Part shown: positions 8,807 through 9,346 of the stretch, piece after piece
Layout of the letters: each line of letters opens with the position of its first letter
How positions within the stretch are numbered: the stretch's first letter is position 1
DNA from: an uncultured Acidobacteriaceae bacterium
Lineage (GTDB): Bacteria; Acidobacteriota; Terriglobia; Terriglobales; Acidobacteriaceae
DNA length: 64,000 nucleotides
NCBI GenBank assembly: GCA_903842065.1
Contig: CAIMKZ010000077.1
Coordinates: 100,872 to 164,871 of the forward strand
Direction of reading: 5' to 3'
Translations under genes and position numbers: made by a program
Notes under the pieces: model-generated
What the model was told of the DNA's origin: nothing
The model's input: the letters and a program-made list of their open reading frames with translations, nothing else
The model's database searches: none

Positions 8807-9140
8807 TGGCGGCCTCCACTGGGATTGTGCGGGTGAAGCAGCTTACGGTGCCTTCGTGGCAGACGAGGCCGTCGCCCTCGACTTCAACTTTGAACAACAG
8901 CGTGTCGTTGTCGCAGTCGGTGGAGGCGGAGACGATCTTGAGGCGGTTGCCGCTGGTCTCGCCCTTCATCCAGAGCTTTTGCCGAGTGCGGCTCCAGAAG
9001 GTGACGAAGCCGGACTCGAGGGTTTTCTGGTAGCTGGTGGGGTTGAGGAAGCCGAGCATGAGCACCTCACCGGTGCGGGCGTCCTGTACGATTCCGGGCA
9101 CCAGCCCGTCCATCTTTTCAAAGTCGATCTGCTGTTCCAC
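8796..9140 (-). CDS. hisI: Phosphoribosyl-AMP cyclohydrolase (HisI only, no fused HisE)
   Basis: [50 protein letters not shown]. Confidence 0.96.
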
Positions 9141-9170: not shown

Positions 9171-9202
9171 ATAAAAAACCCGCTGGCTGGGATGCCGGCG
9201 GG
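9171..9202 (-). terminator. Candidate his attenuator terminator
   Basis: Minus strand CCCGCCGGC-atccca-GCCAGCGGG followed by TTTTTTAT, directly upstream of hisI. Confidence 0.88.
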
Positions 9203-9230
9203 CCTGGTGTTTCCTGATCTCTCTGGCCGA

Positions 9231-9308
9231 TTACTTCAGGCCATAGCAGTCCGCCGGCATGGGGGTCCCATGATGATGGTGGTGACCGAGATGGCGGAGC
9301 GTCTGCAT
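9231..9308 (-). CDS. hisL: Histidine leader peptide (25 aa)
   Basis: ATG CAG ACG CTC CGC CAT CTC GGT CAC CAC CAT CAT CAT GGG ... AAG TAA; 6 His of 25 residues, 5 consecutive; followed by mutually exclusive hairpins. Confidence 0.88.
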   Translation of the reverse strand: MQTLRHLGHHHHHGTPMPADCYGLK

Positions 9309-9316
9309 CTATATTT

Positions 9317-9346
9317 AAGCTACGAGAGCATGCGCGGCGCTGTCAA
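9317..9346 (-). promoter_or_regulatory. Candidate promoter for the his leader
   Basis: TTGACA (9341-9346), 18-nt spacer, TAGCTT (9317-9322); the mscS TGA stop lies within TTGACA. Confidence 0.5.

Follow-up and report, generated by a model that had tools for sequence, protein, structure and literature searches.

Control of histidine biosynthesis through a translated leader is known from the enterobacterial hisL element (Rfam RF00514), where a short leader ORF with a run of His codons precedes the his operon and the choice between a terminator and an antiterminator controls transcription. For Firmicutes, His attenuators of the his operon and of hisS/hisZ have been predicted by comparative genomics, also with a His-rich leader, a terminator and an antiterminator (PMC9413887, PMC2965389), so that the sequence-only reading of the DNA treated here, which knew such attenuation mainly from Proteobacteria, was too narrow on this point. 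Actinobacteria provide attenuators of another kind: leuL, trpL and ilvL of Streptomyces lividans have leaderless leader mRNAs with the regulatory codons near the 5’ end (PMC8079986), and the poly-Cys short ORFs of mycobacteria show leaderless leader translation with the same codon placement (Canestrari 2020, cited in PMC9031893). In a survey from 2010 almost none of the attenuators predicted for Acidobacteria had an associated function (PMC2965389), and leaderless genes were predicted to make up about 13% of the genes in three Acidobacteria (PMC3160421).

The window analysed here is a stretch of 64,000 nucleotides from an uncultured Acidobacteriaceae bacterium. On its minus strand we found a leader with a cluster of His codons directly before a his operon, an intervening terminator, and an antiterminator that uses the terminator 5’ arm, so that the two structures are mutually exclusive. 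We put the probability that a leaderless form of the classical ribosome-mediated transcription attenuator controls this operon at roughly 0.92, judged from the sequence and its relatives. For comparison, a HisI query of the GTDB genome set supplied 80 loci, from Acidobacteriaceae and their near relatives. The elements of the leader RNA are given below; the ORF, its His codons and the terminator were read from the sequence.

9308-9231, minus: leader peptide ORF of 25 codons, MQTLRHLGHHHHHGTPMPADCYGLK and a stop codon, conserved in 79 of 79 relatives
9293-9291, minus: sixth His codon of the leader ORF
9284-9270, minus: regulatory run of five consecutive His codons; the predicted folding switch lies past the last of them
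9272-9258, minus: small hairpin 1:2, CATGGG-ACC-CCCATG, which shares bases with the last His codon
9260-9251, minus: antiterminator arm, region 2, ATGCCGGCGG, pairing with 9192-9201
9201-9192, minus: region 3, CCGCCGGCAT, at once terminator 5’ arm and antiterminator partner, supported by covariation and by own-versus-permuted pairing
9202-9173, minus: intrinsic terminator with a T6 tract, composed of 5’ arm CCCGCCGGC (9202-9194), loop (9193-9188), 3’ arm GCCAGCGGG (9187-9179) and T6 (9178-9173)

Behind the terminator lies an eight-gene operon in the order hisIGDCBHFA.

9140-8796, minus: hisI, phosphoribosyl-AMP cyclohydrolase, first gene of the operon, GTG start at 9140
8806-7931, minus: hisG
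7822-6545, minus: hisD
6849-5461, minus: hisC, ORF as listed; the true start is internal, with the match beginning at residue 112
5340-4711, minus: hisB
4711-4103, minus: hisH
4098-3319, minus: hisF
3616-2648, minus: hisA, ORF as listed; the true start is internal, with the match beginning at residue 99

Most of the leader parts had been proposed by the sequence-only reading. Its His-rich ORF of 25 codons is correct to the base in all coordinates, the CATGGG-ACC-CCCATG hairpin lies where it was placed, and the 10-nt complementarity between antiterminator arm and terminator 5’ arm is exact, ATGCCGGCGG being the reverse complement of CCGCCGGCAT. The terminator is present as claimed, but its stem contains one C-A mismatch and thus 8/9 pairs. 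A further conserved sequence, a GGCCAGAGAGAT-like box soon after the leader stop (about 9230-9210, minus; alignment columns 104-118), is kept in 31 of the 80 loci, those of the window’s own clade; it belongs to none of hairpin, antiterminator and terminator.

Absent from the earlier account was the promoter, which adjoins the end of the preceding gene.

11184-9343, minus: gene of an MscS-like mechanosensitive channel, directly upstream
9346-9341, minus: -35 box TTGACA of the his promoter, overlapping the stop codon of the MscS-like gene; assigned by consensus
9322-9317, minus: -10 box TAGCTT (TAnnnT), ending 8 nt before the leader ATG; assigned by consensus and by spacing in relatives
9310-9309, minus: predicted transcription start, AG just before the AUG (A9310 or nearby), placed by the -10 spacing

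The two boxes are separated by 18 nt in the window, and this spacing is established among the relatives: all 80 loci carry the -35 box (TTGACA in 71, TTGACT in 9), the spacer measures 17-18 nt in 79/80, and the end of TAnnnT lies 8-9 nt before the leader ATG in 66/80 (86% of 77). The flank of the predicted start is likewise biased, with A at -2 in 61/80 loci and G at -1 in 66/80. Position +1 normally follows the last base of the -10 box by 7 nt, which would put the mRNA start on the leader AUG or no more than about 2 nt from it. Leaderless mRNAs are marked by a -10 box close to the start codon (at about 6-9 nt) and by the lack of a Shine-Dalgarno site; the leader agrees with both, SD-like tetramers preceding its ATG in only 5-10% of loci. 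From the closeness of the -10 box to the ATG and the lack of a Shine-Dalgarno site in most relatives we infer that the leader mRNA is leaderless, a predicted state, and is probably translated from the RNA 5’ end. Alternatively, the RNA could have an ordinary 5’ UTR, with transcription starting upstream, inside or before the MscS-like gene, an attenuator of the enterobacterial type and a fortuitous promoter spacing; the promoter is indeed recognised by consensus only, and the -10 box of the window is weak (TAGCTT, 3/6 to TATAAT) and went unreported by a generic promoter scan. However, chance spacing is hard to reconcile with the near-constant distance of TTGAC-N17/18-TAnnnT to the ATG in most of the 80 loci, where the flanks are unconserved, with the rarity of SD-like tetramers, or with the far families: TAnnnT ends 7-11 nt before the ATG in 95% of the family, 79% of the class and 84% of the distant set, compared with 1.7% of random window positions. 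We therefore regard an ordinary 5’ UTR as improbable, though the least so of the alternatives.

The attenuator is further supported by the peptide it encodes. A His-rich leader ORF was found in 79/79 loci with sufficient upstream sequence, so that the His run, whose retention in related genomes had been proposed as a check and whose loss would have counted as a refutation, is kept in every one of them. Two forms prevail in the family, M-Q-x-x-R-H-H-G-H-H-H-H-H-G-x-x-M-P-A-D-C-x-G-L and, in Edaphobacter, Granulicella and Terriglobus, M-S-x-x-x-H-H-G-H-H-H-H-H-A-x-S-V-L-A-A-V-S-G-V-A-K. The His codons of the family leaders exchange freely (361 CAT, 225 CAC) and gaps in the ORF alignment are mostly multiples of three, which points to selection on the His residues of the peptide. 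A run of five His codons occurs in the six frames of the window in the leader alone, and 30 Markov samples averaged 0.0 such runs; together with the arrangement conserved in all 79 relatives this puts the run beyond chance. Matches to four His codons number six in the whole window, compared with 0.4 expected from Markov samples, and two of them lie inside the leader run. Such a peptide might itself be the active product, acting in trans or binding metal, with the RNA pairings secondary: a run of His residues could bind metal, and Sinorhizobium has in peTrpL an attenuator leader peptide that acts in trans (PMC7298713). Outside the His cluster, however, the peptides of different families have nothing in common (MPADCHGL, VLAAVSGVAK, CPRRCG and CQWVLA are examples) and the non-His residues track the RNA pairing, which leaves a functional peptide very improbable.

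For the RNA itself, covariation in both alternative pairings, named as a check by the sequence-only reading, is established in 77 aligned loci. Pairing in the small hairpin holds for 97.1% of cells, with exchanges at column 55/61 (GC 43, CG 20, UG 6) and column 53/63 (UA 46, CG 16, UG 12). The nine pairs of the antiterminator are paired in 97.4% of cells, four of them with compensatory changes on both sides, and its score and fraction of paired cells exceed all 500 shuffles and all slid versions; the terminator stem is paired in 87.6% of cells. Without constraints RNAalifold picks the small hairpin and the antiterminator. In 21 loci with A in region 3 one terminator pair is broken (A-C, columns 152/164), whereas the same region-3 base forms a U-A pair of the antiterminator in 23 loci, which argues for selection on the antiterminator itself and not for a by-product of the terminator sequence. 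We further compared the duplex of each locus’ own leader and terminator arms with permuted combinations, using loci chosen independently of pairing and found with models (R1 and R2, see below) that contain no antiterminator pairs. Own arms gave -22.4 kcal/mol compared with -19.8 kcal/mol in 39 class loci (0/20000 permutations), with p=5e-5 in 12 dereplicated loci and p=5e-4 in 19 loci of distant families, all of these values being approximate only, given the shared descent of the sequences. The family relatives, too, have a terminator after the leader stop, at a distance of 48-63 nt in nearly all; a few were missed by the T-run pattern and are visible by eye in the sequence. Conservation of the His run, covarying alternative pairings and own-versus-permuted pairing together support translation-coupled attenuation, as had been suggested from the window alone.

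According to this mechanism, transcription would begin 0-2 nt before the leader AUG and a ribosome would load at the 5’ end without a Shine-Dalgarno site, as the promoter spacing suggests. When charged His-tRNA is scarce, the ribosome would stall on the His codons and cover region 1, leaving region 2 (ATGCCGGCGG) free to pair with the emerging region 3 (CCGCCGGCAT), so that the terminator would be blocked and hisIGDCBHFA transcribed; this step from stall to antitermination is inferred, with conservation and folding as its backing. When His is plentiful, the ribosome would cover or pass region 2, region 3 would pair with region 4 and transcription would stop before hisI. In the folding analysis a ribosome footprint was placed on each codon and the transcript ended just past region 3. 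As long as the A site had not passed the last His codon, the antiterminator had a probability of about 0.8; a few codons later this had dropped to about 0.2 (family and distant sets) or about 0.4 (class set). Averaged over the 135 loci folded, the His cluster thus sits just ahead of the switching point. For the complete RNA at equilibrium, the window gives the antiterminator at 1.0, 0.99 and 0.89 when the ribosome stalls on the first, second and third His codon of the run, and the terminator at 1.0 with the ribosome at the stop codon; a ribosome near the leader stop codon comes close to region 2. In most relatives the terminator is favoured at equilibrium at every ribosome position, so the switch would have to be a kinetic competition; this result is expected if the first-formed pairing decides antitermination. 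The ribosome-free RNA is predicted to be partly antiterminated (0.58-0.70) before region 4 exists, and shut-off without translation is thus not explained by the model.

One part of the earlier scheme needs revision, namely that a ribosome masking the pause hairpin frees the antiterminator arm. Attenuation as such is supported, but the small hairpin shares only the three bases ATG with the 10-nt arm and does not by itself sequester the antiterminator core. Sequestering region 2 probably falls to the ribosome through its position, helped in some members of the clade, the window included, by a second pairing of region 2 with the 5’ CCGCC.

The Rfam His_leader model (RF00514), also proposed as a check, found no match at gathering or permissive thresholds (to E=10), which fits a lineage-specific form. 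The Trp_leader model gave a weak alignment that follows the terminator (18.7 bits, cut-off 41) and was rejected. The T-box covariance model had no match in the region, nor had any other Rfam riboswitch, at the gathering threshold or up to E=10. This bears on the possibility that another factor (riboswitch, T-box or repressor) acts on the same terminator, for which there is precedent in Firmicutes, where T-box and HisR control his genes (PMC9413887); since conservation falls on the His codons and the alternative arms, we consider it more improbable still than a functional peptide. That the terminator merely serves the MscS-like gene constitutively, with the His-rich ORF arising by chance, is scarcely credible: this gene ends at 9343 on the same strand and readthrough from it would meet the terminator, but frame, His run and both pairings are retained across numerous genera and families, the window contains no second run of five His codons, and the pairings covary.

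The predicted attenuator is not confined to the window’s close relatives. In the order, 240/298 genomes gave a match to a covariance model built from the family (R1), nearly always a single one each; in G198 and G261, the two Acidobacteriaceae genomes that had no hisI match, the element was not found either. In the class R1 matched in 103/200 genomes, including families f2, f89, f90, f91 and f97, and the gene context is established there: forty class loci outside the family were read, and the leader ORF is followed by hisI in 40/40 (HisI identity 48-65%). At one class locus, L181, the terminator was missed by the search pattern. A class-wide model (R2) gave further matches in the phylum, of which 20 were fetched. 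Seventeen of the 20 checked lie directly before a his gene, 16 before hisI-hisG and one (L197, family f67) before a distant hisG with 33% identity, and the device thus occurs with two operon layouts. At two loci of family f21 (L202, L204) a His-rich leader and terminator lie 1.2-1.3 kb before a divergent hisG. L201, a match outside the class with no leader and no his gene, was discarded as a false positive. Many further families of the phylum (L126-L143) have hisI after hisF at the operon end and a HisG of a distant type (28-35% identity); we found no His leader before hisI in these hisI-last operons. Across its range the leader peptide diverges in sequence, while the His cluster, the terminator and the pairing of the leader 3’ half with the terminator 5’ arm persist with compensatory changes. 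We lean slightly towards the view that the leaderless His attenuator is the ancestral, phylum-wide his control in Acidobacteriota, that it predates the rearrangements placing hisI or hisG first, and that transcription is coupled to translation by 70S ribosomes loading on the 5’ AUG, with no Shine-Dalgarno site involved.

In the window’s own genome an attenuator of this type may be restricted to his. TTGAC-TAnnnT-ATG arrangements of the leaderless kind were found at 14 sites in this genome, with an amino-acid-rich leader only at the his site, and a simple scan for Trp, Ile/Leu/Val and Leu leader peptides near trpE, ilvB and leuA (L205-L208) yielded none that was convincing.

In the searchable literature, subscription papers lying outside it, we found neither a His attenuator reported from Acidobacteria nor a leaderless one for histidine from any organism. 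The phylum would thereby gain a well-defined, ancient attenuator with a known signal, and the consensus from dozens of sequences offers the basis for a possible Rfam family. It would also show leaderless translation at work in amino-acid attenuation outside Actinobacteria, and this in a phylum for which leaderless genes had so far only been predicted (PMC3160421). Cultured carriers of the element include Terriglobus roseus, Edaphobacter and Granulicella.

The acidobacterial element shares with hisL a short leader ORF with a His run before the his operon and transcription control by terminator versus antiterminator. It differs in having hisI as the first gene, no Shine-Dalgarno site, an apparently leaderless mRNA and no match to the Rfam model; hisL has an A-F layout, and the acidobacterial layout is shorter. 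Its resemblance to the Firmicutes His attenuators lies in the His-rich leader, terminator and antiterminator, whereas phylum, sequence and gene context are different and a leaderless start is not reported in the accessible portions of PMC9413887 and PMC2965389. With the Actinobacteria attenuators it has in common the predicted leaderless leader mRNA and regulatory codons near the 5’ end. Those belong to another phylum and respond to other amino acids, with no His case among them, and several lack a clear terminator; in the acidobacterial element, by contrast, terminator and antiterminator are both conserved and covary.
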